Made by a program: the position numbers and the translations under genes | From: a virus | Reading direction: 5' to 3' (one strand) | Virus record (IMG/VR): IMGVR_UViG_3300008107_000960 | Coordinates: 1-28,001 of that record | Length of the DNA stretch: 28,001 bases | Notes under the pieces: model-generated | The model's database searches: none | What the model saw: the letters and a program-made list of their open reading frames with translations, nothing else | What the model was told of the DNA's origin: nothing | Shown: positions 1,175 through 25,545 of the stretch, piece after piece | How the letters are laid out: the number at the start of each line of letters is the position of its first letter | How positions within the stretch are numbered: the first letter of the stretch is position 1

Positions 1175-2925
1175 GTGCAAAAGAGTTAGGCATATCGTCT
1201 GAATTACCTAATAGTGAAATACGTGACCTAATAGGTAAACAAGGTCCAGTAATTGCTGAAGTGGTTGACATTCTAGACGGTGGAAAGATGGGCGCATTAA
1301 AGGTTGTGCTATATAGAGGGGCAGTCAAAGGTAAAAAACAATCTGATTTAGTAGAATATATTGCTGAATATTTGCCGTCATTTTTTGGATACACTCCTTA
1401 TGATGCTATGGATCCAAACAATAGAGATTGGAGAAGTACTCAGTCAAGCTACGGCATGTGGTTCGTACCTCCAGATGTTGGTACTAAGGTCGTTGTAATT
1501 TTCATTGAAAACAATACTGCAAATAGATGTTTTTGGATTGGATGTGTTCCTGAGGGTGGTATCAATCATATGGTACCAGGCCTTGCGGCGTCTAAATCAG
1601 TAGAGTTAACCCCACAAGAAAAAACTAAAATTGGTACAGACAATGTCCCAGTTATGGAAGTTAATAGAAGAATTCGAGATCAAAGATTGGATTCAATTGA
1701 TGCAGTTAAAAGACCAATACATCCTTTTGCGTTAAGACTGGCAACTCAAGGTTTATTAAAAGATCCTATTCGAGGAATTACAACCAGCAGTGCTCGCCGC
1801 GACGCTATCAGTAACGTTTATGGAATATCAACACCTGGGCCTGTTAGAGTTAAAGGCAAGTCATATTCAGTAGGACCAGAAAATCAAACGTTTGATGTTT
1901 ATACTGAAAGAGAAGGTGGCACACAATTTGTCATGGATGATGGATACATTGGTAAAGATGAAAAAACAAAAAAAGAAGGTATATTAGACGAACATGTTAG
2001 GATTAGAACTAGAACTGGACATCAAATACTATTACATAATAGTGCAGATTTAATTTACATTTGTAATAGTAAGGACGGTAAAATTGATATCTTTGCCGCA
2101 GATAGTGTTAGTATTCATACAGAGTTTGACTTTAACTTCCGTGCAGATAGAAATATTAACATGGAAGCAGGCAACAACGTTAATATTGTTGCCACTAGAG
2201 GTTCTTTACATTTAGAAGCAGGTGGCATAGTAGAAGGGTATGCAGGACTTGATTGTAATTTTTCTGCTAAGAGCCATGTTAACTTAAATTGCGGCGGAAA
2301 AATTCGTCTTACTTCACAAGTAAATCCTTTAAATCCGTTAACTTCTGGTATTGATTTATATGCTTTAACTGGAAATATAAACATGTATGCCACTACTGAT
2401 TTTAAAATGCAGTCGTTGTTAGAAATGAATATAAGATCTGGATTAGGTTTAAGTGTTATTTCTGGAGCCGCAACAAATATACAAAGTATTGGCGAATTTG
2501 TTGTTGATACTGGAGGTGCAAACTATATTTCAGCAGTTGGTGCTAACGTCTTTAATGCAGGTGGAGCCCATATTGAGCGTGCTACATTAATAGATATGAA
2601 CGGCCCTACACCTGCTCCAGAGTCCGTAAGTTCTGAAACTAATCTTCTTAATGCGTTAGAAGCATTGACAATATTGCCAGAAGCAGCCACCGTTGTACCA
2701 GTATTGGATACCTTTGTATTGCCTTATAGAGAAGCTGATAGAAATGCTACCGAGGGCATACAGAAGGGTTGGGAGAACAATAATTATTATCGTCAACCAG
2801 ATATAAGAAGCATTATGTTGCGAGTACCAACACATGAACCATGGGATCATCACGAAAGTCTTGACCCAGAACAATTTAAACCTATAAAAACTGACAGAGA
2901 CGGTAACGTAGCACAAAGCGTATAA
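1171..2925 (+). CDS. gp5: Baseplate hub / tail spike protein, gp5-like, without lysozyme domain
   Basis: The protein has 584 residues. In T4 a trimer of gp5 forms the membrane-piercing needle under the tail tube. Residues about 25-135 match the gp5 OB-fold domain, with the conserved FFGYTPYDAMDPNNRDW and VPPDVGTKVVVIFIE segments. From about 270 a VgrG-type stretch begins (VRIRTRTGHQILLHNS), followed by alternating beta repeats (about 300-475) that look like the triple-stranded needle. The C-terminus (about 515-584) carries a His-rich motif, HEPWDHHE, at 555-562. T4 gp5 has a lysozyme domain between OB and needle. Here that interval (about 140-265) shows no Glu/Asp/Thr lysozyme signature and is too short for one, so peptidoglycan cleavage must come from elsewhere. 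The start has AGGAG at 1156-1160. The gene is followed 10 bases later by gp25, and the AAGGA for gp25 overlaps its stop codon. Confidence 0.9.
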   Translation: MSAKELGISSELPNSEIRDLIGKQGPVIAEVVDILDGGKMGALKVVLYRGAVKGKKQSDLVEYIAEYLPSFFGYTPYDAMDPNNRDWRSTQSSYGMWFVPPDVGTKVVVIFIENNTANRCFWIGCVPEGGINHMVPGLAASKSVELTPQEKTKIGTDNVPVMEVNRRIRDQRLDSIDAVKRPIHPFALRLATQGLLKDPIRGITTSSARRDAISNVYGISTPGPVRVKGKSYSVGPENQTFDVYTEREGGTQFVMDDGYIGKDEKTKKEGILDEHVRIRTRTGHQILLHNSADLIYICNSKDGKIDIFAADSVSIHTEFDFNFRADRNINMEAGNNVNIVATRGSLHLEAGGIVEGYAGLDCNFSAKSHVNLNCGGKIRLTSQVNPLNPLTSGIDLYALTGNINMYATTDFKMQSLLEMNIRSGLGLSVISGAATNIQSIGEFVVDTGGANYISAVGANVFNAGGAHIERATLIDMNGPTPAPESVSSETNLLNALEALTILPEAATVVPVLDTFVLPYREADRNATEGIQKGWENNNYYRQPDIRSIMLRVPTHEPWDHHESLDPEQFKPIKTDRDGNVAQSV

Positions 2926-2935
2926 GGACAGAGTC

Positions 2936-3373
2936 ATGCCTATTAAAAAATTAGTAATAAAGCCAAATTCAAATCAAGTTTCAAACTATGGAATTTCAAC
3001 AGTACATGTGTACAAAGGGTTCAATAGTAATCGTCCAGGCCAAAATTTCAAAATGTACGACTTTGACTGTGTTAGACAGGATCTTTTAAATCAGTTCAAT
3101 ACTAGAAAAGGCGAGAGAGTTATGGATCCAACTTTTGGTACCATTATATGGGACGCAATTTTTGAACCATTAACTGAATCAACTAAGAATGCAATAACTG
3201 AAGATATCAGAGAAATACTAAACAAGGAACCTAGAATAGAACCAGAAGCTGTTAAAGTGGATGAATATTCCAGCGGAATATTATTAGAAATAACAGTAAA
3301 GTATAGAGTCACTGATCAAAGATCAAATATCAAATTATCTTTTGATAGAGATATTGGACTGATAGTTGATTAA
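2936..3373 (+). CDS. gp25: Baseplate wedge subunit gp25
   Basis: The protein has 145 residues, close to the usual size for T4 gp25 and the GPW/gp25 family. These proteins sit in the inner baseplate where the sheath starts to assemble. The family core is visible: YDFDCVRQDLLNQFNTRKGERVMDP (split here as YDFDCVRQDLL then NQFNTRKGERVMDP, about 41-65), then FGTIIWDAIFEP (67-78) and the signature EPR triplet at 98-100 within LNKEPRIEPEAV. The C-terminal beta strands (LLEITVKYRV, then IKLSFDRD) are also typical. The start is supported by AAGGA at 2924-2928 with seven bases of spacing. In the phage it works with gp6 in the inner wedge, and gp6 follows directly. Confidence 0.95.
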   Translation: MPIKKLVIKPNSNQVSNYGISTVHVYKGFNSNRPGQNFKMYDFDCVRQDLLNQFNTRKGERVMDPTFGTIIWDAIFEPLTESTKNAITEDIREILNKEPRIEPEAVKVDEYSSGILLEITVKYRVTDQRSNIKLSFDRDIGLIVD

Positions 3374-3423: not shown

Positions 3424-4497
3424 ATGGCTAGCACAGAACGACAAAACTCACTATTGGTTGCTGAAGATTGGACCAAAATTTATCAAACTTTTCAGAATGC
3501 TGACTTTAAATCCTACGACTTTGAAACTATTCGTAGGAGCATGATTGAGTATCTCCGTCAAAATTATCCTGAAAGTTTTAATGATTATATTGACAGCAGT
3601 GAATATGTAGCACTTATTGATATGATTGCCTTTTTGGCACAAAGTTTGAGCTTTAGAGTTGATTTAAATGCTAGAGAAAACTTTTTAGAAACTGCAACTA
3701 GACGAGAAAGTATATTAAAATTAGCCAAGTTGGTCAGTTATAATCCTAAACGAAATCAAACTTCAAACGGTCTACTAAAGGTAGTGTCTGTAAGTACAAG
3801 TGATAATATAATTGACTCAAATGGAACTAATCTTTCAAATAAAATTGTTGTTTGGAACGACGGAACTAATCCAGATTGGTATCAGCAGTTTACATTCGTA
3901 ATGAACTCTGCAATGAGTTCTGCTACATTTGGCAGACCTAATTCAAGAAGAACAATAGATGGTATAGTTAATGAACAATATAATTTAAATGTTGTTTCTG
4001 CCGACGTTCCTGTTTTTTCTTTTTCTAAAACAGTCAGCGGAATTCCAATGAATTTTGAAATTGTTGGCTCTTCTATTATAGACAGATCAACTGTGGGCGA
4101 ACAAGATCCAAAGATTGGTGCTAGTTTTGGTGTAATTTATAAAAATGACAACAAAGGAAGTGGCAGCAAAAATAGTGGATGGTTCGTGCAATTTAAAGAA
4201 GGTACACTACAGAGTAGTGATTTTACAATAACAAACCCTATAGCTAATGAAGTTATTGGTGTTGATGTAGAAAACATTAATAATTCTGATATTTGGCTTT
4301 ATGAATTAAATGCTAATGGCGAGTTATCTACTATGTGGACTAAATTAGATTCTGTTGGTGGAACCAGTGTCATTTATAACAGCATTAAAAACAAAACAAA
4401 AAATATCTATAGTGCATCAACTAGAGAGAATGATCAAATTGATTTAATTATAGGACTAGTAACGGACTTAGTTATATTATCAGTCCGCAGGACATGA
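3424..4497 (+). CDS. gp6: Baseplate wedge gp6, N-terminal part (reading frame broken)
   Basis: This 357-residue reading frame carries the N-terminal part of gp6, the dimeric protein that joins neighbouring wedges around the T4-type baseplate. The conserved opening is clear at residues about 24-108: FKSYDFETIRRSMIEYL, then YIDSSEYVALIDMIAFLAQS and ARENFLETATRRESILKLAKL. The match to the family runs to about residue 342 (ENDQIDLI). The last 15 residues before the stop (GLVTDLVILSVRRT) do not look like gp6. In frame 0, codons from 4449 read YRTSNGLSYIISPQDM and run into the next gene, so the true gp6 sequence changes frame here. By comparison with remembered gp6 proteins, a short stretch containing FGDG is also missing between DLI and YRT. 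The start has GGAG 11 bases upstream. It may be a deletion in the phage, an assembly error, or a real split gene. Confidence 0.88.
   Translation: MASTERQNSLLVAEDWTKIYQTFQNADFKSYDFETIRRSMIEYLRQNYPESFNDYIDSSEYVALIDMIAFLAQSLSFRVDLNARENFLETATRRESILKLAKLVSYNPKRNQTSNGLLKVVSVSTSDNIIDSNGTNLSNKIVVWNDGTNPDWYQQFTFVMNSAMSSATFGRPNSRRTIDGIVNEQYNLNVVSADVPVFSFSKTVSGIPMNFEIVGSSIIDRSTVGEQDPKIGASFGVIYKNDNKGSGSKNSGWFVQFKEGTLQSSDFTITNPIANEVIGVDVENINNSDIWLYELNANGELSTMWTKLDSVGGTSVIYNSIKNKTKNIYSASTRENDQIDLIIGLVTDLVILSVRRT
4443..4497 (+). other. gp6 frame junction: overlap of two gp6 reading frames
   Basis: Frame 0 opens after TGA 4440-4442, while the N-terminal gp6 frame (frame 1) stays open to TGA 4495-4497. In frame 0 the codons from 4449 give YRTSNGLSYIISPQDM, which is the expected continuation of gp6 upstream of the ATG at 4494. 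Frame 1 over the same bases gives sequence unlike gp6. The switch is best placed at 4447-4451 (ATTAT). No good minus-one slippery heptamer is seen (TTTAATT does not fit X XXY YYZ). AGGA at 4489-4492 is only one base from ATG 4494, too close for a normal Shine-Dalgarno site. Confidence 0.8.
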
Positions 4498-6779
4498 ATA
4501 ATATTCAAGTGAGGATGCCTTACCTAAACGGAGCAGGGCAATCTCAGACATTATCAATAGTTTTGAGTTTACAAGTAAGTGTATCAAATAGCGCACAGAG
4601 TGAAAGCAATCAAAGCATTAAGCAAAATGCTCCTCAGATGTACTATACACAAAATAGAATGATAACAGGCGAAGATTATAATGTACTTCCTATTACAATT
4701 AATCAAGACATTGTTAAAGTAAAATCTATTAACAGAGTTTCTTCTGGAATTTCTAGATATTTTGAAATTAATGATCCAACAGGCAGATCAAGTTCAATAA
4801 ATTTATTTTCAGATGACGGCTGCATTTATCAAAATACGTATACTACAAGTTTTACTTTTAATTTTAATACAAAAAATGAAGTATATGGAATTGTTAAATC
4901 TAAAATTGAACCATTAGTTTCTAAAGAAGAAGTTAGAGACTTTTATTATGAACTGTTTGAAAGAATTTTAACAGGCGACACTAACATTGTTTGGAACAAT
5001 GTTTTCTCTGTGTCCAATCAAGCCACAGGATATTTTAAAGACTCTGTAACATCATTGGCAGTTCCTATTGGGCAATATACCCAATCTCCATTACGATATT
5101 TAAAATCTCAAGCATTGGTAAAATTTGTACCTCCTACAGGAAAATATTTTGCACCTAATAATACTTTAACCACAGTTAATAATAAAAATACCAAATCATA
5201 TATTTGGAGTGAAGTAGTTTATGTTTCTGGGGACGGTAGCAACTCTGGAAAAGGAACAGACGACAATGGTGTTGGACTAGTGTCCATATCAAATCCAGTT
5301 CCTGATGGTGCGATACCTTCAGAAATAATACCATTATTTGTTACAGACATACCATTTACGTTTGAAACAGAAATTGTTAACCAAATTACTTTAAGAAGAG
5401 ATTTTGGAATTAGGTACGACAGGGATTCAGCAGAGTGGAAAATTATTAATTCAAGTAATTTAGATTTAGACAGTGAATTTAGTTTAACTTACGCAGGTGA
5501 TGTTAGTAATTTAAGACAGGACAGTAGTTGGCTCGTTGCTTTTAAGAGTGATGGAGAAAATTATATAACATATTACAGAGGACTTGAATACGTTTTCCAA
5601 AGTAATAAAAAGATAAGTTTTTATTTCAACGAGAGAGATAAACAATTTAGTCAAAAATTAGGTGGAGAATCTAAAGATAACATTAATATTTTGTCAGTTA
5701 ACGAAGATTTAGAAACGGGAACTGTGCTAGGAAAAGATTATCAGTTTGAAATCACTGGCATGATATCCAACGATGATGGTATATATGACAATAATAGAGT
5801 TAAAATTAGTTTTTCTGATAAAACAGGAGATGGCATAGTTGACGATCCTGATTCTTTTGTTAACATAGTTAAACCTTTATTGATAGATCCTATAACAAAC
5901 ACTAGAAGTTCTTTTGTTTATATTAAAACAGTTGTGCTTGACGGACAGGTCTATAAAGAAATATTAGACTCAAGTTCTGTTCTAACATTTGAAAGTGAAT
6001 TAGATGTTGTTAATCTAAGTTTATATCCTTCAGGACAATTATTTTATTTTTATTCTTCGGCAGAAAATATAATCAAACGATTAGACACTACTATTGGTCT
6101 TGTTGTGGAAACTGGAGTTGAAGCATTTATTGGAAGAAATAACATCAAATTCCAATATATTCACAACGCAGGTCAAGATTATAGGATTGATCCTTGTAAA
6201 ACAAATATTATTGATATATTTTTATTAACTAAAACATATGATGATGCATTGAGATCATGGATATTATCACAACAAGATGATCCTCCTGAGCCGCCAGACT
6301 CAACACAATTATATGAATTATACTCTGCTCCGTTAAACAGCGTGAAAGCATTGAGTGATGAGATTGTTTTCCATCCTGCAAAGTATAAATTGTTATTTGG
6401 AACAGGAGCAACAGAAGATTTACAAGCTAAATTTTATATAGTTAAGAATCCTGCTTCAACAGTAAATGACAATGACATTAAGAGTAGAGTTATAGTTGCT
6501 ATCAATCAATATTTTGCACTTGAAAATTGGGATTTTGGAGATACTTTTAACTTTGGAGAGTTGAGTGCGTATGTTATTAAGTCATTAAGCCCAGACGTGG
6601 TAAACTTTTTAATAGTTCCAACCGCACCAGAAAGGTATTTTGGAAGTCTGTTCCAAGTATTTTGCCAACCAGACGAAATATTTTTAAGCACTGCTGATGT
6701 CTCTGATTTAGAAATAATTAGCACAATCACATCTGGATTATTAAAAACAAATGGACCTATTGTAGTGTCTGCAAGTTAA
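4494..6779 (+). CDS. gp6: Baseplate wedge gp6, C-terminal part
   Basis: This 761-residue frame continues gp6. From the N-terminus it shows the conserved VRMPYLNGAGQSQTL, then the hallmark YYTQNRMITGEDYNVLP (about 50-66) and VNRVSSGISRYFEI. Long beta-rich insertions typical of marine T4-like gp6 follow (YRGLEYVFQSNKKISFYF; IRYDRDSAEWKII). It ends with the family's C-terminus, FGSLFQVFCQPDEIFLS, followed by a helix and a final VVSAS. With the first part it would make a protein of about 1,100 residues, longer than T4 gp6 (660). The ATG at 4494 overlaps the stop of the first part (ATGA) and codes for an internal methionine of the family, so it may not be a natural start. Coupled reinitiation is possible, but a single original gene is more likely. 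Confidence 0.85.
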   Translation: MNNIQVRMPYLNGAGQSQTLSIVLSLQVSVSNSAQSESNQSIKQNAPQMYYTQNRMITGEDYNVLPITINQDIVKVKSINRVSSGISRYFEINDPTGRSSSINLFSDDGCIYQNTYTTSFTFNFNTKNEVYGIVKSKIEPLVSKEEVRDFYYELFERILTGDTNIVWNNVFSVSNQATGYFKDSVTSLAVPIGQYTQSPLRYLKSQALVKFVPPTGKYFAPNNTLTTVNNKNTKSYIWSEVVYVSGDGSNSGKGTDDNGVGLVSISNPVPDGAIPSEIIPLFVTDIPFTFETEIVNQITLRRDFGIRYDRDSAEWKIINSSNLDLDSEFSLTYAGDVSNLRQDSSWLVAFKSDGENYITYYRGLEYVFQSNKKISFYFNERDKQFSQKLGGESKDNINILSVNEDLETGTVLGKDYQFEITGMISNDDGIYDNNRVKISFSDKTGDGIVDDPDSFVNIVKPLLIDPITNTRSSFVYIKTVVLDGQVYKEILDSSSVLTFESELDVVNLSLYPSGQLFYFYSSAENIIKRLDTTIGLVVETGVEAFIGRNNIKFQYIHNAGQDYRIDPCKTNIIDIFLLTKTYDDALRSWILSQQDDPPEPPDSTQLYELYSAPLNSVKALSDEIVFHPAKYKLLFGTGATEDLQAKFYIVKNPASTVNDNDIKSRVIVAINQYFALENWDFGDTFNFGELSAYVIKSLSPDVVNFLIVPTAPERYFGSLFQVFCQPDEIFLSTADVSDLEIISTITSGLLKTNGPIVVSAS

Positions 6780-6789
6780 TGGATAAAAA

Positions 6790-9700
6790 ATGAGTAAAAG
6801 AAAATCATTAGACCTATTACCAGTTATTTTTAGGACTGACGCGAATAACCGTTTTCTTTCTGGAACAATAGATCAATTAATACAACAACCTAAACTTAAA
6901 AAGATTGATGGCTTTATTGGCGAAAGAGCAGTAACGAATTTCAATCCTGAAACTGATTTATATATCAATTCAAATTTAGAAAAATCTTTTAGAACAGACT
7001 ATGAAGTAGAGCCAGGAATTGTAACTAGAAATGCTATTACTGACAATGTTGAATTTGCCAAATCATATGAAGACATTCTCAATAGTTTAAAATTTTATGG
7101 ATCTGACGTATCCAATCAAGACAGACTTTTTAAACAACAAAGCTACACATGGAATCCACACATTGATTTGGATAAATTTATCAATTATAGAAATTATGTT
7201 TGGATACCAGAAGGACCTCCAACTATTTTAGTTATTGGTGATGAAAAAGTAACAAATACAACTGTCAAAGTTGGCATTGTCAGCGATGAAAATTCTGAAT
7301 ATTGGAATTTTAGTAGTGATTCAGTTGCAGTTAATCCAACAATAACACTATATCGAGGCATGACTTATGTTTTTGATGTTGATACTGTGGACAATCCTTT
7401 TTATATTAAAACTAAGAGAACAAGTGGAAGTTTAGATTTAGTTGAAAATGTATTAAACAATGGAAGTAACAACGGAAATGTGGTATTTGAGGTAACTGAT
7501 GATATACCTGCAACGTTGTTTTATGTTAGCGGAAAAGATAGTACAACTTTTGGAAAATTTTTAATAAGAAATAAAACTGAAAACACCGCATTAAATGTTG
7601 AAGAAGACATACTTGGAAAAAAGAATTACGAAGTAGTAGGTAAGTTCAAGTTAAGCAATGGCATGAAAATTAGATTTTCCAATGTTGTTATGCCAGAATC
7701 TTATAGAGAAAAAACATATATTGTAGAAGGTGTTGGAGAATCAATTACATTAGTTGACTATGAATCATTAGTTACAATTGAAGGATATTCTTCTGAAGTT
7801 GAAAGTTCGTTTGATGAAACTTCATTTGACGATTTGCCGTTTGATCAAGTTAGTAATTATCCATTAACACCAGATTATATATTGATCAATAGATCTAGTA
7901 AAGATAAAAATCCTTGGTCTAGATATAATAGATGGTTTCATATTGATGTAGTTACTTTAAGCTCTGAAATTAACGGTGTTGAACCTAATTACGGAACTAG
8001 AGCAAGCAGACCTATTATTGAATTTCAACCAAATATTCGTCTTTATAATTTTTCATCACAGTCTAAAAGATATGTTGATTTTTTAGATACAAGAGTAACT
8101 GACGCATATAGTTCAGTTGAGGGATCTGTTGGTTTCTTTGTGGACGGTGTGCAATTACAGAATGGAAATAGAGTAATTTTTACCGCAGAAAAAGATGCAA
8201 GTATAAGAAACAAAATATTTGAAGTAAAGTTTTTAGATATTGATGGCAATAAAAAACTTCATTTAGAACAAGTTATAGATAGTGATCCTTTAGAAAATCA
8301 AGGATTATTAGTATTGTCAGGTAATGAAAATGGCGGAACAACTTGGTTATATAAAAACGATGAGTGGGTACCTGCCCAAAGAAAAACAACATTGAATCAA
8401 TCGCCTTTATTTGATTTATTTGATAACACAGGTAAAAGTTTTTCAGATTCTTCATATACCAATAACAATTTTAGTGGAACAAAATTGTTTGGTTATCAAA
8501 TAGGAACAGGAGTTAATGACAGTGTACTAGGATTTCCTTTAAAATATGCCAACGTGTCAAATGTAGGCGGCTATCTATTTGAGAATTTTATAGAAACAGG
8601 GTCATCAAGTTATTTTGATGCTGATGGAAATTTAATCACTGTGGATTTTAAAGATGGGTTCATTAAAGTTGATGATTCTAGATACGAAAATTTTTGGACG
8701 TTAACCAATGCACCATCAATTCAAGAAATTATTGATCAACAAGTTGCAATGGGAGGTGAAGAATACTTAGAATTCAACAGTATTAATGTCAATACTCCAA
8801 AAACTGCAATTAGAGTTTTTAAAAATGGAACATTATTACCACAAACAGATTATACGGTTTCTGCAGACGTAACATTTGACTCTTATTTTATTAATTTTAA
8901 TGTACCTCTAATAAAAAATGATGTAATTACAATTAGATCATTACCTGTATTTGATAAAGGAATAGAAGGAAAATACGAGTCTCCAATAAATTTAATTAAC
9001 AACCCATTAAATGAAGTTCCTTTTACTGTTAGCTATGCAGAAATAAATGATCATGTTAATTCAATTTTATTAAATGCATCTAAAGCTATTGGGGCAACAG
9101 TCAACAAAGACAATTTAAGAGATCTTCCTAATTTATATTCTTATGGTAGAAGATTTGTACAGCATCAGGGCCTTGTTGCAATGGCTGGCGCAATGCTTTG
9201 CGATAAACAGATCAATTTTATCAGTTCTATTCGTTGGGCGGCATTAGAATATCAAAGATATAAAACATTAATTCTGCAAAAGTTTGTTGATTTGCCTTCT
9301 TATAATTCTATTCCTTCTGCATTAGATGATATCATCACAGATATTAGTAAAGACAAAAATAATAAATCAACTTTCTACTATAGCGATATGGTGCCTTATG
9401 GGTTGAATAAGAGAGATTATGAATACACAGTTAGAGATGTTAATATCATATCTTATGCTTATGGATCTAAAATTTACGACTCTAAAGAATTAAACAATAA
9501 TGCAATTCTCGTTTATCTAAACAATGAGTTATTGATAAAAGATAAAGATTACCATTTTGACACTATTGAACCTTTGGTTACATTTGATAAGACTCTAAAT
9601 TTAAATGACAAAGTTTTGATTAAGTTCTATAACAACATCTACGGTTCTTGCATGCCATTTAGCCCTACTAAGTTAGGCCTTTATCCTGCATTTATTCCAG

Positions 9701-12700
9701 AAATTTATAAAGACGAAACGTACTTAGAACCTACAGATGTTATACAAGGACATGACGGATCAATAACAGTTTGTTTTGGTGATGACAGAGATTTGCTATT
9801 ATTAGAGCTAGAAACAAGGATCTATAATAATTTAAATTCTTTTTATGATAACAGAATCTTTGATGTGATTGATGTTGTTCCAGGAATTTTTAGAAGCAAC
9901 AAAGAGGAATTAGTTCGAGTTAACAAAACTATTGAAGAAGAGTTTTTAAGATGGACTGGACTTTATAACATTGATTATGAAACAAACGAAAATGAAATCT
10001 ATGGTGGTAATTTTAGCTATAATTTTGTAAACTCTGTTGGAGAATTAAATCCAGAATCAGTTTTAAATGGCTCATGGAGAAAGATATATAGGTACTATTT
10101 TGATACAGATAGACCACATTCTCATCCTTGGGAAATGTTGGGATTCAGTATTAAGCCAGATTGGTGGGATACAACATACGGACCAGCACCCTATAGTGCA
10201 GGTAATGATGTTTTGTGGAAAGATTTAGAAGACGGTTACATTAGAGATGGCAATAGAAAAGGTTATGATAGTAGATATAAAAGAATAGGTCTATCCAACA
10301 TATTGCCTGTTGATTCTTACGGAAACCTAAAAGATCCATTTGATGTAAATGTTGTTAAGTACTTTGATTTTTCTCAAAGATACCAACAATGGAAGTTTGG
10401 TGATATGGGTCCTGCTGAGAGTTCTTGGAGAAGGAGTCATTTATATCCGTTTGCTATTCAAGTAGCTATGGCATTGAATCTTCCTGCAAAGTATCTAACA
10501 CTGTGTTTTGATACTTCTAGGAATACTTTTAATAACGCCAATCAAACAATATATAAAGACACAAATCAAAGGATATCTCCTAAAGATTTAAAAATTTATT
10601 CAGACTTTAACAAAGGATTTGTTTTTGCAACAGGCTATTCTCCTTATATAGTAGAATATCTAAGATTAAAAAATACTTCTCCTTCTACAACATTAAAAAA
10701 TTATATTAACAATATTAAATCTAATTTAATGTATAAGCTAGGAGGATTTGCCAGCAAAGACAAATTCAATGTAGCATTAGAAACTGTTACTAGTTACAAA
10801 ACAGTAGATAAAGTTTTTGTACCACAGGAAAATTATCAATTATTTTTATCTACTGGCAATCCTATTAAAACACTTTCAATGTCAGGAATAATTGTTGAAA
10901 GGGGTACAACTGGATTCGTTATTAAGGGTTATGATAATGTTAATCCTTATTTTAAAATTAATAAAGCAATTACCGCACCAAATGATCCAGTTATCACAGT
11001 AGGAGGAACAACTGAATCCTTTATATATTGGGCACCAAATGCAAATATTACTGGAGGAAGCATAGTATCAGTTGGACAAAAGTATTATAGAGCAGTGTCA
11101 ACTCATTTGACTAAAGAGTCTTTTGATCCAGCTTTATATTATCCTCTTCCATATCTTCCAACAATTGGTGGAATTGATGCAACTGTTCCATCAAATTTTG
11201 AAGATACTATTACGTTAATTCCTTACGGAACTATTTTAAAATCTTCTCAAGAGGTGTTTAATTTTATTCTAGGATACGGCAGCTATTTAGAATCTGAAGG
11301 ATTTATTTTTGATAAAATCCTATCTGAGTTAGAAGTTGTTGCAGATTGGAAGTTGGCCGGAAAAGAATTCTTATTTTGGAGTGTTCAAAATTGGGCTAAT
11401 AATAGCGTTATTAGTTTAGCACCTTTTGCAGACACCGTAAAGTTTTATAGTGAAAAGTCAGTTGTAGAAGATATAAATGATTTATTTTATGACTATTCAT
11501 TATTGAAATCAGACGGAAGTGCGATAGATAAAAACAGAATCAACATTGTTAGAGAGGATAACACTTTCTTAATTGATACATCTAAAATTTCTAATGATGG
11601 AATATATTTTGTAAAAATCAACCTAGTACAAAAGGAACATATTGTTGTCTTTGACAACTTTACTATTTTTAATGATTTGATATATCAACCTTATTCTGGA
11701 TATAGACAAAACAGATTTAAGGTTTCTGGATACATCACTGACAACTGGACTGGTGATTTTTATATCCCAGGATTTGTATATGACAGTGCAAAAATAGAAG
11801 ACTGGCAAGTGAACGTTGATTATAATATTGGTGATGTTGTCAAGTTTCAAACTAGATATTATCAAGCTAATACTAAATTACTTCCTGCAGAAACTTTTAA
11901 CTATGAGAATTGGGCTGAACTTGGGAAAGCTCCTGTAGCACAATTACTTCCTAATTTTGAATATAAAATAACACAGTTTGAAGATTTTTATAGTTTAGAA
12001 AGTGAAAATTTTGACGATAGTCAAAAAAAGTATGCACAAAAATTAATTGGTTATGTTCCTAGAAATTACTTGAACAGCTTAATTGTTGATGAAACAAGTC
12101 AATATAAGTTTTATCAAGGGTTTATTAAAGAAAAAGGAACCGTAGCGCCATTAGAAAAGTTTTCCGTAGCATCTAATCAAGCATTAGGATCACATTTATC
12201 TGTGCAAGAAGAATGGGCGATTAGATTGGGAACGTTTGGTGGTGAGAACACTTATAAAGAAATAGAATTTTCTCTAGATCAAAATAAATTTAATCAAGAT
12301 CCTCAATTGTTTGAATTTGTATACGGTGAAAATGTTATAACTTCGCCTAGAAGCTATCCAGTAGATCAATCAAGTCTGCTAATTAAACCTATTGACTTTA
12401 ATGGTGCGCCTTGGCCAACATTAGACGTTAACAAAAAGAATGGAACTAGTTATCTACAATATCAAAAATTACCAACTGCTGGTTATCCTAGAATTGACGA
12501 TGTTACATTTACTGCCTTATACGAAAATAATATACTTTCTTTAGGTGCAAGCGGCTCTTTACAAGAAGGAGACACCGTTTGGGTTGCAATGGATAAAAAG
12601 GGAGACTGGAGTGTTAAACGATATACTAAATCTAGTTCTAAGATTATCAATTATCAAGTCGACAACGCAAACAATTTAATTCAATTTATAACTGATGTTG

Positions 12701-15700
12701 CACATAATTTAAAATTAAGAGATTTTATTTCAATTGCTAGAATGCCAGATCCTTTGAATGGGGTATATGAAGTTATTGGAATTGACACTCCTAATACTTT
12801 TGTTGTAAGTACAACGTTTAATGATATTCCTGATTCTGAATCTATATTAGACGGATCTCTTTACTATTTCTTAAAAACTCGATTTACTAATTTAGATGAA
12901 TTAGCAAACATACCTGGAATAGCTCGTTGGAAAAATTGTGAATTTGTTTGGATTGATGACGACGGCACAGGCAATTGGTCAGTTTTAGAAAAAGAAAATT
13001 CTTCTATTCCTACCCCACTGCGACCTTATAAAGAAGAAGCCAAGCAATATTTTGGCCAATCAGTAGCTATAGCCCCAGTCACTAATATTTTTGTAGTGTC
13101 TGCAACTAATGTTGAAGGTGGTAGAATTTATGTTTATCGAAGAGAAGTTCTTGGATCAACAGATGTTCAATTAGATCAAAGTTATCTAGTAGAAGAAAAT
13201 GTAAGCGATGTATTATCTGTTCAAACTCTTAAAGATGGAGTAGTAGTTGAGGCAATGCCTAGAAATCATGGCGCTTCAATTGGCATTTGGGAGAATGAAT
13301 CATTATCTTTAAGATATATTGTTACAGGCGCACCTAATGCTTCTGGAGTAAAGTGGATATCATCCGGAGTTACATTTGAGAATGAGCCAATTAAGAAACC
13401 AGTTGATTTTAGCTATCAGTCAAGTGGAATTTTTGATGAAGGGTTAATAAAAATTGTAAAGTATGATGACCTTGGTGCAGAATTTGTAACTGATATTATA
13501 CTAGCAAGCCCTAGTGCAGAAAGAGCATCAAATTTTGGTCATAAAGTAAAGATAGTTGGTAACACTAATCCTTTCATAATGGTGTCTGCACCAGGACAAG
13601 ATTCAAAAACTGGATCAACATTTATATACTACCTAGATAGTAACAAGGATTGGCAAGTTGTATTATTAAACAATCAACCTTTTGACTTTAGATCTAGAAT
13701 TACACAAATTAGTCAAGGATCTGAATTTGGTTGGGATATTGCATCATCCAGTGATGGAAATATTGTAGCAATTTCTGCTCCATCTTATTTGAAAGATCGA
13801 ACACAGGCACATATTGGAGCAGTATTTGTCTTCCAAAAAGATGCTGTAAATTATACATATATCTTAAAACAATCTATATATGCAGATGATTTCATTGAAC
13901 CAGGAGATTTGCTATTAAAGGGTGTATCAAAATCTTACTCTACTGTTGAAATAACACTTGTGTTTGATGCAACAGAATACACATTAACTAGAAATAGAGG
14001 AAATTTTATTCAAGATGGTTTTAGGACTGGTCAAACAGTACAAGTTACTGGATCTAGATTTAATAATTTTGAATTTGTAATTGATGGAATTTCTACAACA
14101 ACATTGACTTTTAAAGCCAATGAACTAATGGCCAATGAAAACGTTACCACACCTATTACAATTATTGGATTAGGTACTGCTAGGAAAGATAGATTTGGTG
14201 ACAAAATTTCAATGACTTCAGATGGTAGTTTGTTATTAATTTCTAGTGACCATTCCTCACAAAATAAACTTGATGCAGGAATGGTATATGCACTTAACAA
14301 AAATACTTCAGGGCAATATGTATTAAATCAAAAAATATCATCTCCATCCGCTGAGCCAGGTGAATTGTTTGGAAATAATATTGAAGTTAGTCCTGATGGA
14401 AAAATTTTACTAGTAACCGCTGCCGGAGGCGATCAAGCCTCAAATATGTATTTTGATTCATATATTGAAAGAATTATAAATGCGCAGGAATTATATGGCT
14501 CTGAATATGTTTTAAATCCAAAGTCTGCATTGAGACCATTAAGAACTACATTTGATAGTGGTAGTACAAGATTTGTTGATAAAGCACAAGATAGCGGTTT
14601 AGTTTATTTGTATCAAAAATTAGGAAATTATTTTGTATTTGGAGAATCATTAGTTAGCGGTGATGCGTCTGATGCAGACGGATACGGAACAGGTCTAGCC
14701 ACAAACGGAAAATACTGTTTAGTGGGTGCTCCAAGATATGAATATAGAGTTGAAGGACAAGATGAAATCAATCCAAATATAACATCAGTGGTTACATATA
14801 GTGATGCAGGTACTGTTGTTTTCTTTGATAATAGTCCTAAAGATGATGGTAATAAAACTACTTGGACTGCGGAGCATGTAGGTGAACTTTGGTTAGATAC
14901 TAGTACATTGAGATATGTATGGTATGAGCAAGGATCTGCAGAATTTAGAATTAACAATTGGGGCAAATTGTTCCCAGGTGCTACTGTTGATGTCTATGAG
15001 TGGGTTAAGAGTGATTATAGACCAAGTGAATGGGCAACTTTGGCTGATACTGAAGATGGATTAGCTCAAGGTATTAGTGGTCAACCAAAAAATCCAGATA
15101 ATACTGTAGTTTCTATTAATCAATATTTTGATCCTATCATTAATGATTTTGTAAACGTGTACTACTTCTGGGTTAGAAATAAAATAACCATTCCAGATTT
15201 GAATTTTAGATCAATTAGTTCTTTTGAATGTTCAAGAATTATAGAAGATCCAAAAACACAAGGGATTAAGTATGCTTCCTTTTTAAGCCCAAGTAGTATT
15301 GCCCTAGCAAATACTAAGAAAGATCTTGATGCTAAAAAGATAAACATTGACATTTATTATAGAGATAGTGACGTTGAAATCAATCGCCATAGTCATTGGC
15401 AGTTGATCAATGAGAATAACAAATATGCTGTTTTAGATCCAATGATCGAACTCAAATTATTTGATAGTTTGGTAGGACAAGATGAATTAGGAAACTCAGT
15501 TCCTGATCCAAGATTGTCTCCAAAGATGCGCTACGGTATTTTAAATAATCCAAGACAAAGCTGGTTTGTTAATAGAGAAAAGGCTCTAAAAACTTTATTA
15601 GTATTTGTTAATAACATTTTACTGAAGAATGATGTAGTAGGTAAAGTTAATTTAGATAATTTGGATGATTATGATGCAGTACCTTTGGAAAGTTACGGCT

Positions 15701-18700
15701 ATTACGATGAAATAGTAGAGTCAAAGGCAGATTTGTCTTCTATTGGAACTGCTGGTAAAATTGCAGGTGAATTAGAAGCAGAAATAATCAATGGAAGATT
15801 AGTCAATGTAAACATTGTTGATTCTGGTGTTGGCTATAAAATTGCTCCAACTGTAGAAATAATTGGAGATGGCACAGGCGCTAGAATACAGACGGCTATT
15901 GATTTGTCTGGTAAAATTGTATCAGTTAAAATATTAAGTCAAGGTATTAATTATACTTCAGCACCAAAATTATTAGTTCGTTCATATTCAGTGCTAGTAA
16001 CATTGGATGAGGAAATTAATAAGTGGGCGATTTATCAATCTATCAACAATATTTTTGAAAGAAAAATAAGCCAAATATATGATGTTAGAAATTATTGGAG
16101 TTTTGTTGATTGGGTGTCTGATGATTACAGCGTTGAAATTCCGCCTAAATTTGTTATCGAGTTTACATCAGATCTAGCAACATCTAATTTTTCTATTGAT
16201 GACACTGTAAAAATTAGAAATACAGGAGATGGAAGAAGTATAGTATTAAGAAAAGTTGAACTAGGAAAGGGCAATTATTTAAGTGACTATGATTTAATTT
16301 ATAGAGAAAGAGGCACTATCCAATTTAGTGAAAAGTTATACAATAAAGCTGTTTCTGGTCTTGGGTTTGACAGTTTTGTTGGTTTTGATCAAAACAGTTT
16401 TGATGAATCAAATGCTACTGAAATAAGAAAAATATTAGTGAGCGTTAAAAACGATATATTTGTTGGAGACTTAGCACAATATTGGAATAAATTTATTTTT
16501 GTTGCTATAAAATACGTTCTAAGTGAACAACTTTTTGTTGATTGGGTTTATAAAACAAGTTTTATCACTCCAATAATTGATGCTGGATTATTAGATCAAA
16601 AAGAAATTTACAGATTTAACGATTTTGCCTATGTTGAAGAATTTGTTAATGAAATTAAACCATATAGATCTAAATTTAGAGAAATTACAACTAATCACCA
16701 AGTTAAGGAAACTATCAATGTTGGTGTGACAGATTTTGATTTGCCTTCTTATATTGATATAAATGGCAATATAACAATACCATCTACTTCTGTTATTGAA
16801 AATGTTTACCCATTCAAATATTGGAATGACAATAAAGGGTTTAGTGTAAAACAAATCAATATAGCCAATCCAGGTAATGGATATCGATTACCTCCTCAAG
16901 TTGTTATCAACCCTGCCCAAGGAGATTCGGGCAGAGGAGCAACTGCTATTGCACGTATTAGTAATGGAAAATTGTCTGAAATTGTAGTTACTAATCCAGG
17001 CACAGGTTACCTATTAACGCCTAACGTGGTTATAGTAGGTGGCGGAAATTATGATACAAATTTTGTACAGGCAAAAGCTAGTGCAGAGTTATTCAATGAC
17101 TATATTAGAACAAGCGAGATTAAATTAAGATTTGATAGGACTTCTGATAAAGGATTGTTTACTGGGCAATTTTATAGTCGCAATTTTACAACTGATGGAA
17201 TTACATTGAATTATGTATTAACTTATCCTGTTGACGACTTTGACGATAACTACCCTGCAATGCAGGATAAAGAAACTATCAAAGTTTTGATTAATGAAGT
17301 GGAAGTTGGGGAAGATGCGTATAGAGTTACGTTTAGAACAGATTTGAGTACGATTATAACTTTCAATGTCGCCTTGCCAGCAAATCAAAATTTGAGAATT
17401 CAATATATTAAGAATTTCTTGTATACTAAGGATATTTTTGAGCAAACTACTGAAAGTTATAAGGACACGTTCCAATTAACTTTCCCACCAGAATTAGATA
17501 ACCAGAAAATTGTTATTACTTCAATTAATGGTATCACGAATGTTGGCTATACGGTTCCTTATTCAGATTACTTAATACAATTAGTGCAGTCTGAAGTGAG
17601 CCATAATAAGTTCATTGGATATATTAAATTTAAAAATGTACCAACTATTGGTTCTATAATAACTGTTCAATATGCAAAAAATATTAATATTCAAAATGCA
17701 GTTGATAGAATTATTACCAGTTATCAACCAACAGTTGGTATGCCTGGTAAGGATATTACTCAATTAATGAAAGGTGTAGAATTTGGCGGTGTACAAGTTC
17801 AAGGATTAAACTTTAGTGTGAGTAGTGGTTGGGATGGACTGCCTTGGTTTACACAAGGTTGGGATACTTTTGTCAATGACTATAAAGATTTATTAGTTAT
17901 TAGTGACGGAGTAACAACCACATACGATTTAGGATATGTCCCCTTACAAGGCGTACAAATAAACTTTTATTTTAATGGTGTTCGTGTTGATGACGAATAT
18001 TTTGGAACTTCTGAGCAAAAAAATAATGATGCCTTGTTTAAAACTATTATTTCTAATGGAACAACTAGTAGGATAACACTACCTGTAATTCCTGCAAATG
18101 GCGTTAAGATTGAAATTAGACAATCTTTAAGTGACGGAGTTACATTGCCAACTGATGATTTTGTTCTTGACACAAGTTTAAGTGGCGGCGATTTCACAAC
18201 AATTAGAGATGCTTTAGAAACTAGATTTAGAACAGCAACTGGGTTACGTCCAGATGATATATCAGTTGATGGAGGACAATTCTTATCAATAGAACACAGC
18301 CCATCAACAGAGGAACTAGTGAAGGGAGAAATTTTTGATACCCTGTCAATGACTGTTTTTAATAGTCCTAGTTCAGGAAGTAATCTAGTTAGAACATATC
18401 AATATCTGTATGATGGAACAAATCCAACATATGAAATTACAGGAAGTGTTGATAGTAATCAATCTATTGATGTATATGTAAATAATTTCTTATTAGACAG
18501 AAGTACTGATTTTACAGTTTCGTCTTTAGGAAATGGTAATTCTTTAGTAACATTAACTACTACTGATTATGGAATAAGTACTGCCAATTTAGTTGACAAA
18601 ATTTCAGTTACTATACAGAATATGTCGATTGGTGGAAGTAACATATTGAATAGAGTAAATTACATTGTTACTTCTTCTGATAGCACTGCTAATTTGATTG

Positions 18701-21518: not shown

Positions 21519-23765
21519 ATGCCTTATACCATACCTTTTAGCGACCCTAGTAAATCGTCTAGTCCGATCACAGTTAACGATAATACTGAAAATATAACCA
21601 GTACAAGTTTGTCGTTGGTTGGAAGAAACTATTCCAACTATGGTGTAGCATTTGCTAAGAATTTTGTACATCTATTAGAAAATTTTGCGAGTCCTTCATC
21701 CCCAGGAAATAGTATTGAAGGACAGCTTTGGTACAACAATATTACAAAAAGGTTGTACATAAATGACTCCACTGGCGGTACAAGTAACTGGAGGCCTGCA
21801 GGAGGAACACACGTTGCACCAAGTACCAACATTCCTCAAAATCCTTTATTGGGCGATTTATGGGTTGATACATTAACACAGCAGTTAAGTTTATATAACG
21901 GAAGCAACTGGGTATTAGTAGGACCAACTGCACTTTCAGGAAAAAAGACTGGATCTTATGTTGAACAACTTGAAGATTCATCTGGAGTTAAGCATTTAGT
22001 TTCAATTGAATACGCTAATGACGAAGCTATAAAAATTGTATCAACAGAATCTTTCCAACCACAACGAGTTATTGACGGGTTTACTATATTAAATCCAGGT
22101 ATCAACGTATCATCTAAAAAGTTTATTGGTCCAGCAGATACAAATATTGCAAATACAGTTTCTAAAATTTACGGAATTGTCACTATTGCTGAATCATTAA
22201 ATGTAACTAGTCCGTCAGTGGCCACAGTTAGCGCAAATAATTTTGCTAGAAGAGATAGTGCAAATCAATTTTATGGTCAACAGAGTATTCTTAATGATGC
22301 AGGATTGAATATAGGATCAACCAGTGGTTTTAGCTTGTCTGTCCTACAAGGGACATCTGTAATTAAAAATACTTCAGATGGTGGATCAATTGACTTTATC
22401 ATTTCTAATCAAGGGTCACAGAATATTGTGATGAAACTTGACGGTAGAAATCAAAGAGTTGGTATTAATCATCCAACACCTCAAGTTGAATTAGACGTTA
22501 ATGGTGATGCGTTCATTAGTGGTCATTTAACAATGACCGGAACAATTGACTCCTCAAGTCCTACATCAGGATCTTTCCAAAGTAGGGGCGGTGCAGGAAT
22601 AGCAAAAAATTTATATGTTGGTAAAAATATTGTATCAAAAGGAAGTCTTCAAATTGGAGAAGTAAACGACTCCAATGTTCCAGTTGCAGGATCAGCAATT
22701 ATACCAAATGCTTCTTCTACTTATGATATTGGCACTTCGTCAAGTAAATTTAGAACAGTGTATGCTGATAATTTTAGTGGAAACTTTACAGGTAACTTCC
22801 AAGGTCAATTTGATGGACAAGTTCAAGGTTCAGCGGCTAGACTTACTAATTCTACTAACTTTACACTAACTGGTGATGTTAATACAATTTCTGCTAAATC
22901 TTTTAATGGAACACAAGTTTCTTTAGAGTTGACAAACGTTCTTTCAGATAGTTCAATCACTGGTAAAACTGAAGTTGTTGATAGTAGAATTGATGATACT
23001 TTATTAATTTATAGATCTAATTTAGGTTTAAGAAAAGTTACTAGAACAAATTTCTTATTAGGGGAAGCGTTTGTTCCAATTGGATCAATTTTTCCATTTG
23101 CTGGTACACAAATTCCATTAGGATATCTTCTATGTGATGGCGCTTTGGTATCTCGTGTTGAATATCCGACACTATATCAGGCTATTGGATCTACTTATGG
23201 TGCTAGTGCAGGTGGTGAATATTTTAGATTGCCAGACTTAAGAGGTCGATTCCCATTAGGCAACGCTGCCATGGCAAATTCTTTATCAAACGTAATTGTT
23301 AATAAAGCTGTTACATTACCAAATGCAACACCATCTACTACAGTAAATCTTTCAAATACTGAAAACATTTACATTGGTATGGTTGTTACTGGTTCAGGAA
23401 ACGTGCCGTCAAACACAGTTGTTATTGATACTACAGCAGAAACAGTGACATTGAATAATGCAGTTACTATTGCTTCTGGATCAGTTCTAACGTTTACTAT
23501 TCGAGTTTTAAGAGATACGATCCCTGTTAACTCTTCTGATAGAGTTAGTAGTGTTACAGGCGACAATTCAGCTAGCGAAATAGGCGGCTCTGGTGGTTTG
23601 AGCAAGAGAGCTCTTAATACACAAACTAGCGGTACTGCTCCAATTTATACAAGTGCAGGTTCTGCTCAAAATTTCAATACCACTTTTGACATTGGATTGA
23701 CTAATCCTTATCTAACTATTAATTATATAATTAGAGTGGGAGTAGGTGCTACACAACTAGGTTAA
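21519..23765 (+). CDS. Tail fibre protein with tail-collar domain (fibre paralogue 1)
   Basis: The protein has 748 residues. Residues 1-140 are the N-terminal module shared with the next two genes: STSLSLVGRNYSNYG, FVHLLENFASPSSPG, then two lectin-like repeats, GQLWYNN...NWRPAG (69-95) and GDLWVDT...NWVLVG (112-135). This end probably attaches to the baseplate. The middle (about 140-510) is a beta shaft with TYDIGTSSSKFRTVYADNF and short G-N-F-T-G repeats. Residues about 517-585 form a phage tail-collar domain (FVPIGSIFPFAG, PLGYLLCDGA, FRLPDLRGRFPLGN), as in T4 gp12-type short fibres. The collar is followed by an inserted module of about 65 residues (MVVTGSGNVPSNTVV...VTLNNAVT) before the typical end NPYLTINYIIRVG. 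The start lies two bases after the previous stop and has only a weak ribosome site. It is probably a receptor-binding fibre; the receptor is unknown. Confidence 0.9.
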   Translation: MPYTIPFSDPSKSSSPITVNDNTENITSTSLSLVGRNYSNYGVAFAKNFVHLLENFASPSSPGNSIEGQLWYNNITKRLYINDSTGGTSNWRPAGGTHVAPSTNIPQNPLLGDLWVDTLTQQLSLYNGSNWVLVGPTALSGKKTGSYVEQLEDSSGVKHLVSIEYANDEAIKIVSTESFQPQRVIDGFTILNPGINVSSKKFIGPADTNIANTVSKIYGIVTIAESLNVTSPSVATVSANNFARRDSANQFYGQQSILNDAGLNIGSTSGFSLSVLQGTSVIKNTSDGGSIDFIISNQGSQNIVMKLDGRNQRVGINHPTPQVELDVNGDAFISGHLTMTGTIDSSSPTSGSFQSRGGAGIAKNLYVGKNIVSKGSLQIGEVNDSNVPVAGSAIIPNASSTYDIGTSSSKFRTVYADNFSGNFTGNFQGQFDGQVQGSAARLTNSTNFTLTGDVNTISAKSFNGTQVSLELTNVLSDSSITGKTEVVDSRIDDTLLIYRSNLGLRKVTRTNFLLGEAFVPIGSIFPFAGTQIPLGYLLCDGALVSRVEYPTLYQAIGSTYGASAGGEYFRLPDLRGRFPLGNAAMANSLSNVIVNKAVTLPNATPSTTVNLSNTENIYIGMVVTGSGNVPSNTVVIDTTAETVTLNNAVTIASGSVLTFTIRVLRDTIPVNSSDRVSSVTGDNSASEIGGSGGLSKRALNTQTSGTAPIYTSAGSAQNFNTTFDIGLTNPYLTINYIIRVGVGATQLG

Positions 23766-23774
23766 GGATAAAGA

Positions 23775-25532
23775 ATGCCGTACGTAATTAAAAAAACTGA
23801 TGGAAATATTATTGCAACTGTTACTGACGGAACTGTTGATACATCCAGTACATCTTTAACATTGATAGGAAAAAATTATAAAGGGATTGGCGAGATTTAT
23901 AATGAAAATCTAGTTTACTTACTAGAAAATTTTGCAAATTCAAGTCCACCAGGAAATCAAATCAAAGGTCAACTTTGGTACAATAACAATACCAGTAAAT
24001 TAAATGTATATGATGGTACAAATTGGAGACCAGTAGGAAGTCCTTTTGTATCAAATGCAAGACCAGACAATTTAATCAGTGGTGATTTTTGGATTGACAC
24101 TGCCAGTCAACAATTAAAATTCTATGACGGTATTAATCTAATCACTGCTGGTCCTATCTATACTAAAAATCAGGGAAAGAATGGTTGGGTAGTTGAAGAA
24201 ATTGTTTCAGATAATGGCGACACAAAATTAGTGACTAGTATATATTCTGCTGATATTAGAATGGCCATTCTTAGTACTAGTGAATTTAGACCATTAGTTC
24301 CAATTAATGGATTTACAGAAGCTTTACAACCCTTGCGAGCTGGATTAACATTTAGTTCTTTAGTAACAGGTAATACAGTTCATGCTATTGTTGAAACTGC
24401 TCAAACACTGTATGATGCAGTTGATGGATCATTAGACACTACTAAGTTTGTAAGATCTGATAAATCTGGTTCTATTTCAGGATCATTAAGTGTAACAAGC
24501 GCCAGCGGAGTCACCATAGGTCCTTCAGCGGCTATATCAATTTATGTTGATACAACAGTAACACCAAATAAGAATGTTGTTAGTAATCAAGTAAACGAAA
24601 GTAAATTAATACTTCGTGTTAGGTCTTCAGATAGTTTTCAAGATGCTGTCTTAGTAGACCCAACTACTAAATCTTTCTCAGTATACCCTGATGACAATTG
24701 GAGAGTGGACGAAGAACCTGCTCCTACTATTAATTTAAATGGTAACACTACTATTGAAGGTTCTTTATTAGTAAAAGGAGTAACAGAGTTTACCAACTCT
24801 ACCACCTTACAAGTTACTGATAAAAACATTGAACTTGCTGTAGTAGACACCCCAACTTCAACTACTGCTAATGGCGCGGGAATAACAGTAAAAGGTGGAG
24901 TAAGTGGCGATAAAACAATTACTTGGTTAAGTTCAGGAGTAATATTACCTCCGTCAACACTAATTCCAACTTGGGAATTGAACGACAATGTCAAAATTCC
25001 TCCTTCAAATTCTTTTTATATTGGCAACAACTCAGTATTAAGTTCTACTACATTAGGAAGTTCTGTTGTTTCTAGCTCATTAACTTCTTTAGGACAATTA
25101 ACTACTCTTAACGTTGGTGACATTAATATAACTAATAATACGTTAACTGTTGACGGTGAAAATTTAATTATTAATGTTCCTTTAGGAAACATTATTTCAC
25201 TAACTAATTTAGTTAGAATTAACAACGTAGCTAGTCCTTTATTTCAATTTGACGTAGCGAATAAAGATTATGTAGACAGATCAAAGACATCAATTAATTA
25301 CTTGACTATTGATATTACAGGATTTGAGACACCAAATACCGAAGCAATTTCACAGATTGAGGCTATGATACCTGCAAATACAGTAAATGCAGGTGACGTC
25401 GTTAGAGCATTGTGTTTGAGTTACACTGATAACACACCGTCGCCAATTGTAGTTAGAGTAGTTAAAAAATTCGTTTGCCAATTAATTTCAGGTATTAGAA
25501 CTTGGGTGTGGGACGAGGATATTTCAGTATAA
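23775..25532 (+). CDS. Tail fibre protein (fibre paralogue 2)
   Basis: The protein has 585 residues, with AAGGA at 23764-23768 six bases before the ATG. Residues 1-130 repeat the N-terminal module of the preceding gene: MPYVIKKTDGN, STSLTLIGKNYKGIG, LVYLLENFANSSPPG, GQLWYNN...NWRPVG and GDFWIDT...LITAGP. The following shaft has TTKFVRSDKSGSISGSLSV and a conserved fibre segment, LQVTDKNIELAVVDTPTST then GAGITVKGG (about 345-375), that also occurs in cyanophage fibres. The C-terminal part has the motif DVANKDYVD, a version of the 'A.K.YVD' segment before fibre tips, and then a distinct tip of about 85 residues ending in WVWDEDISV. There is no collar domain. It shares its base with its neighbours but not its tip, which fits a set of fibres with different receptor-binding ends. 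Confidence 0.88.
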   Translation: MPYVIKKTDGNIIATVTDGTVDTSSTSLTLIGKNYKGIGEIYNENLVYLLENFANSSPPGNQIKGQLWYNNNTSKLNVYDGTNWRPVGSPFVSNARPDNLISGDFWIDTASQQLKFYDGINLITAGPIYTKNQGKNGWVVEEIVSDNGDTKLVTSIYSADIRMAILSTSEFRPLVPINGFTEALQPLRAGLTFSSLVTGNTVHAIVETAQTLYDAVDGSLDTTKFVRSDKSGSISGSLSVTSASGVTIGPSAAISIYVDTTVTPNKNVVSNQVNESKLILRVRSSDSFQDAVLVDPTTKSFSVYPDDNWRVDEEPAPTINLNGNTTIEGSLLVKGVTEFTNSTTLQVTDKNIELAVVDTPTSTTANGAGITVKGGVSGDKTITWLSSGVILPPSTLIPTWELNDNVKIPPSNSFYIGNNSVLSSTTLGSSVVSSSLTSLGQLTTLNVGDINITNNTLTVDGENLIINVPLGNIISLTNLVRINNVASPLFQFDVANKDYVDRSKTSINYLTIDITGFETPNTEAISQIEAMIPANTVNAGDVVRALCLSYTDNTPSPIVVRVVKKFVCQLISGIRTWVWDEDISV

Positions 25533-25545
25533 CGGAGCGAATTAA

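Follow-up and report, generated by a model that had tools for sequence, protein, structure and literature searches.

Is the gp6-like baseplate wedge gene of this virus truly divided into two overlapping reading frames, or does the division originate in the way the record was put together? The window, that is, the whole stretch of DNA analyzed here, is the complete IMG/VR virus record of 28,001 bases, assembled from a metagenome. The features on which the argument depends are as follows.

1171-2925: gp5-like hub/lysozyme gene (hub/lysozyme profile match)
2074..2075, no strand: second join, within the gp5-like gene; 27 bases absent, in frame, with loss of residues GTAWMEFTS
2936-3373: gp25 gene (Pfam GPW_gp25 match)
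3424..4497, + strand: ORF1, N-terminal part of gp6, 357 aa; in the gp6 frame to about 4447, then a 15-residue out-of-frame tail
4443..4493, + strand: gp6-frame remnant 5' of ORF2, (FN)YRTSNGLSYIISPQD, read from the sequence; a TGA at 4440 precedes it
4447..4448, no strand: gp6 join; lacks 52 bases that all relatives have (FxDG segment), with 1 bp shared at the join
4494..6779, + strand: ORF2, 761 aa, the rest of gp6; begins with the ATG at 4494, and its stop ends at 6779
6790-20811: giant virion-protein ORF, 4,673 codons
14849..14850, no strand: third join, within the giant ORF; 246 bases absent, in frame, 0 bp shared

The broken gp6 gene

ORF1 ends with RENDQIDLI in the gp6 frame, followed by 15 unrelated residues (IGLVTDLVILSVRRT) and a TGA at 4495-4497, and past the break the gp6 frame is displaced by one base and continues through YRTSNGLSYIISPQDM into ORF2; the window contains no single uninterrupted open frame for gp6. 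Against the profile phrog_10646 (baseplate wedge subunit), ORF1 matches positions 1-342 (E 5.8e-126) and ORF2 matches positions 375-826 (E 4.8e-150), collinearly with ORF1. Positions 343-374 are matched by neither ORF; 17 residues have been lost and the frame is broken. The original prediction, that a frame change splits gp6, is thereby borne out, with the break located at 4447/4448. That prediction had also estimated a loss of about 52 bases, encoding some 17 residues that include FGDG, as the explanation of both the gap and the frame shift, and direct DNA comparison with the sister contigs L017 and L002 and the 93% relative L003 yields exactly this loss and both of its consequences.

Exactly 52 extra bases are found at 4447/4448 in L017 (8 mismatches to the window in 5,193 bp), L002 (20 in 5,303 bp), L003 (93%), L004 (79%) and L005. 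In L003, gp6 spans 1,135 codons without interruption and has FGDG at residue 343; intact single-ORF gp6 genes also occur in ten further complete relatives. The span between the anchors that flank the site is 99 bases, in frame and free of stops, in 111 of 111 distinct relatives, compared with 47 bases in the window. Natural length variation at this site was rejected because these 111 relatives show none, and the single fixed length argues that the 52-bp difference is not chance variation. Comparison with sister contigs had been proposed as a check on the split: all of the sisters compared carry the 52 bases, and none of the 111 relatives has the two-gene arrangement. The sequence across the gp6 join occurs in no other contig of the virus collection (the window's own record excluded), and the intact sequence occurs in three.

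The missing bases encode a conserved F-x-D-G segment, in which F343, D345, G346, F348, P352, G354 and F356 are invariant among 15 aligned relatives; the FxDG..G..P.G.F segment of the gp6 family is absent from the window. What remains of the gene is well preserved. Up to residue 344, ORF1 is 97–99% identical to intact relatives, and ORF2, which begins at a codon that specifies an internal Met in the intact gene, is 99–100% identical to L017, L082 and L083. The remnant frame from 4449 to 4493 differs from L003 by two synonymous codons and one conservative codon. Silent and replacement codon differences from L003 number 31 and 7 in ORF1, and 128 and 10 in ORF2, which indicates strong purifying selection on each half. 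Such selection on both ORFs argues against a long-standing split, and the near-identical intact sisters imply that any loss can only have happened very recently. The gp6 split is not a new gene arrangement, and the gene is best explained as a gp6-like baseplate wedge gene of the ordinary kind, encoding a single chain of about 1,135 residues, from an uncultured jumbo phage.

The original prediction had left three readings side by side: a working two-part gp6, an assembly or sequencing error, and a defective genome. The comparative evidence strongly favors assembly error, leaves a recent, real and defective deletion as a possibility, and opposes the two-part protein. ORF1 and ORF2 made separately by coupled translation, or joined by -1 frameshifting, and then co-assembling would agree with the ATGA overlap at 4494-4497 and with the otherwise intact state of both ORFs, but we regard this as very improbable, given the lack of the arrangement among relatives and of the join in any other viral contig. 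The ATGA at 4494, formerly taken as a possible coupling site, lies within the same CATGAATAAT in intact relatives, where it is read as internal Asp-Met-Asn; the ATG and the upstream AGGA are identical there and are ordinary codons, so that no new start has evolved, and coupled translation was rejected. Programmed -1 frameshifting was rejected as well, because no X-XXY-YYZ slippery heptamer was seen by eye in the overlap (4443-4497) and a fused product would still be without the hairpin formed by the FxDG segment, which a two-part protein would likewise be predicted to lack. An intron or translational bypass was set aside because there is no insertion and it is conserved coding sequence that is missing.

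The lost hairpin

The gp6 fold was examined in the intact relative L003 instead of the broken window protein. An AlphaFold model of the first 480 residues of L003 has a mean pLDDT of 65, with both ends poor, and places the lost residues (about 342-358) at the end of one strand (338-343), the following loop and most of a second strand (354-362), with moderate local confidence. The best seven PDB matches of the model are all baseplate entries, including those of T4 (5iv5), phage P1 and phiKZ. Its best fold matches are T4 gp6 (PDB 5iv5) and P1 BplA (PDB 9ay5 and 9vzk), with E values of 1e-7 to 8e-10, and the FGDG segment of BplA aligns at the same place. Identity to L003 in these fold alignments is only 10–14%, both proteins are much shorter, and the low TM-scores against them reflect a model that is only partly confident.

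The backbone of the T4 baseplate is a continuous ring formed by gp6, and assembly of the T4 wedge is strictly ordered and halts when one product is missing (PMC3004832). Either gp6 fragment is therefore unlikely, by inference, to be functional without the hairpin. If the deletion were real, a ring-forming baseplate protein could do without its most conserved hairpin, which would be surprising.

Two further missing blocks and the origin of the joins

The gp6 break is not the only one in the record. The 27-bp block absent from the gp5-like gene is present, with invariant length, in all 102 distinct relatives, which led us to reject natural length variation there too, and the window has the exact 27-bp gap in comparison with L002, L003, L004 and L084. 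The 246 bases absent from the giant gene are carried by G006 (99.8%) and G002 (93%), and all 22 relatives have a block of 117–252 bases, of varying length, at that site. Neither the gp5 join nor the giant-gene join recurs elsewhere in the virus collection, the window's own record again excluded. Every relative carries the blocks missing here. The joins are private to this record and close to blunt, sharing with the ends of the skipped sequence 1 bp (gp6), 1 bp (gp5) and 0 bp (giant gene). Such private, near-blunt joins, accompanied by other skips within one record, are what an assembly artefact should display. Deletion by recombination between repeats was discarded because the three joins share only 0–1 bp.

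From these comparisons we infer an origin in the assembly and not in the virus itself, and we consider it probable that the gp6 break is an assembly error that skipped 52 bases. An assembler or scaffolder would have joined two contig ends, passing over 52 coding bases at 4447/4448, in a region where sister assemblies broke too; the skip would remove the FxDG hairpin, shift the frame and make one gene resemble two overlapping ORFs. Similar skips probably lie behind the missing 27 bp of gp5 and 246 bp of the giant virion-protein gene. Sister contigs end at window positions 2091 (16 bp from the gp5 site) and 4482 (35 bp from the gp6 site), and the chance that two of the five internal sister ends should fall within 35 bp of the three sites is about 0.0005 under random placement, by a criterion picked post hoc.

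The sister record L168 (contig 3300008108_004592) has 22 N in place of a true 211 bases (window 3498-3708), which means that gap sizes in such records are underestimated; a smaller gap with a similar underestimate might leave no N at all. For the window, L168 serves only as an analogy. Between 4309 and 4332, the window differs from its nearest sisters at seven positions, mostly silent, in 24 bases, which suggests strain recombination or mixed-strain assembly. Local strain mixing is a common reason for assembly breaks.

Two observations run against an assembly error. The reading frame is kept across two of the three missing blocks, as real deletions would favor (chance 1 in 9), and the sister G006 itself lacks an in-frame block, so that the block content of the population might be truly variable. 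G006 lacks 189 in-frame bases of window 24709-24897 (near 5717 of L175), within a tail-fibre-like gene of 585 codons. In the window these residues are covered by family profiles, and the scan of relatives returned G006 only. It may be G006 that carries the skip near 24708, a decision that rests on the family profiles, and the loss could be either the same artefact on the sister's side or real block variation.

A real and very recent 52-bp deletion in part of the phage population, with the gp6-defective genomes being lost or complemented in co-infection and the assembly following that variant, is unlikely, but deserves more weight than the two-part protein. The two sisters that lie <0.5% from the window would make it very young, strain mixing is visible at 4309-4332, and other block differences between sisters are also in frame. 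It has to contend, however, with the strong purifying selection on both halves (31 to 7 and 128 to 10). Since T4 wedge assembly stops without a product (PMC3004832), such a variant should be rare rather than the assembled consensus. Moreover, deletions by replication slippage usually use short repeats, whereas the joins are almost without shared sequence, and the loss of three conserved blocks with no point stop or frameshift is unlike decay.

Should the deletion instead be fixed in a living lineage, a two-chain gp6 without the FxDG hairpin, together with a gp5 and a giant virion protein shortened in parallel, would amount to a trimmed jumbo-phage baseplate; we give this little credence, about as much as the two-part protein. 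Chimeric molecules produced by amplification (MDA or PCR) and then assembled would also be expected to give several joins with little shared sequence in one record, but such chimeras usually appear as low-frequency reads and as inversions, not as three collinear skips, and this origin is extremely improbable.

An assembly error of the kind favored here has counterparts among the metagenome contig misassemblies described with metaMIC, where breakpoints likewise lie in coding sequence and disrupt genes (about 65% fall within coding sequences in the CAMI sets; PMC9661791); the misassembly proposed for the window differs from those cases in being deduced from comparison with relatives and not from reads. 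As an artefact, the break is a warning that at least three conserved coding blocks can be missing from a record of a virus collection in wide use. In surveys that draw on such records, genes would falsely appear split, and gp5 and the giant virion protein would seem to have short variants that do not exist.

Closest systems and gene neighborhood

The original prediction had named gp6 of cyanophages and pelagiphage HTVC008M for alignment, but the nearest isolates found are jumbo phages (Phosso, Atu_ph07, RaK2, the 121Q/PBECO4 group and PA5oct). By sequence comparison the virus groups with the jumbo phages Atu_ph07, RaK2, 121Q and PA5oct, not with cyanophages. Sinorhizobium phage Phosso and Agrobacterium phage Atu_ph07 are the nearest isolates, at about 30% amino-acid identity over ORF2, and searching annotated phages at the DNA level produced only short matches of 60–80%. 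The profile matched by both window ORFs represents the T4 gp6-like wedge subunit of jumbo phages, and the intact L003 protein matches it as one chain (977 bits).

The order hub/lysozyme, gp25, gp6 and giant virion protein in the window is also found in isolates. Atu_ph07, RaK2, 121Q and PA5oct all have gp25, gp6 and a giant virion protein in this order, the gene in the gp25 place of Atu_ph07 being annotated as hypothetical, and 121Q, RaK2 and PA5oct also carry the hub/lysozyme gene immediately upstream. Unlike that of the window, gp6 in these four phages is a single ORF of 1,153–1,319 codons. The segment lost from the window is present in the isolates as FGDGRFGSIP or FSDGNFGTIP, with the variant PDSRSGVVP in 121Q and RaK2, and the PA5oct record states that gp6 was detected by mass spectrometry. 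In 121Q, gp25 and gp6 are separated by an annotated HNH endonuclease gene (L202 499-1263), which is absent from the window.

Promoters close to the gp6 split are no more numerous than in shuffled sequence. Three successive genes at 21519-27351 have similar N-termini (MPYTI/MPYVI) and look like tandem paralogues, the first of them carrying a phage tail collar domain. A 601-codon tail-fibre-like gene contains 12-base tandem repeats at 26363-26503 and 26635-26717, which encode GDVTGNVTGN-like repeats.
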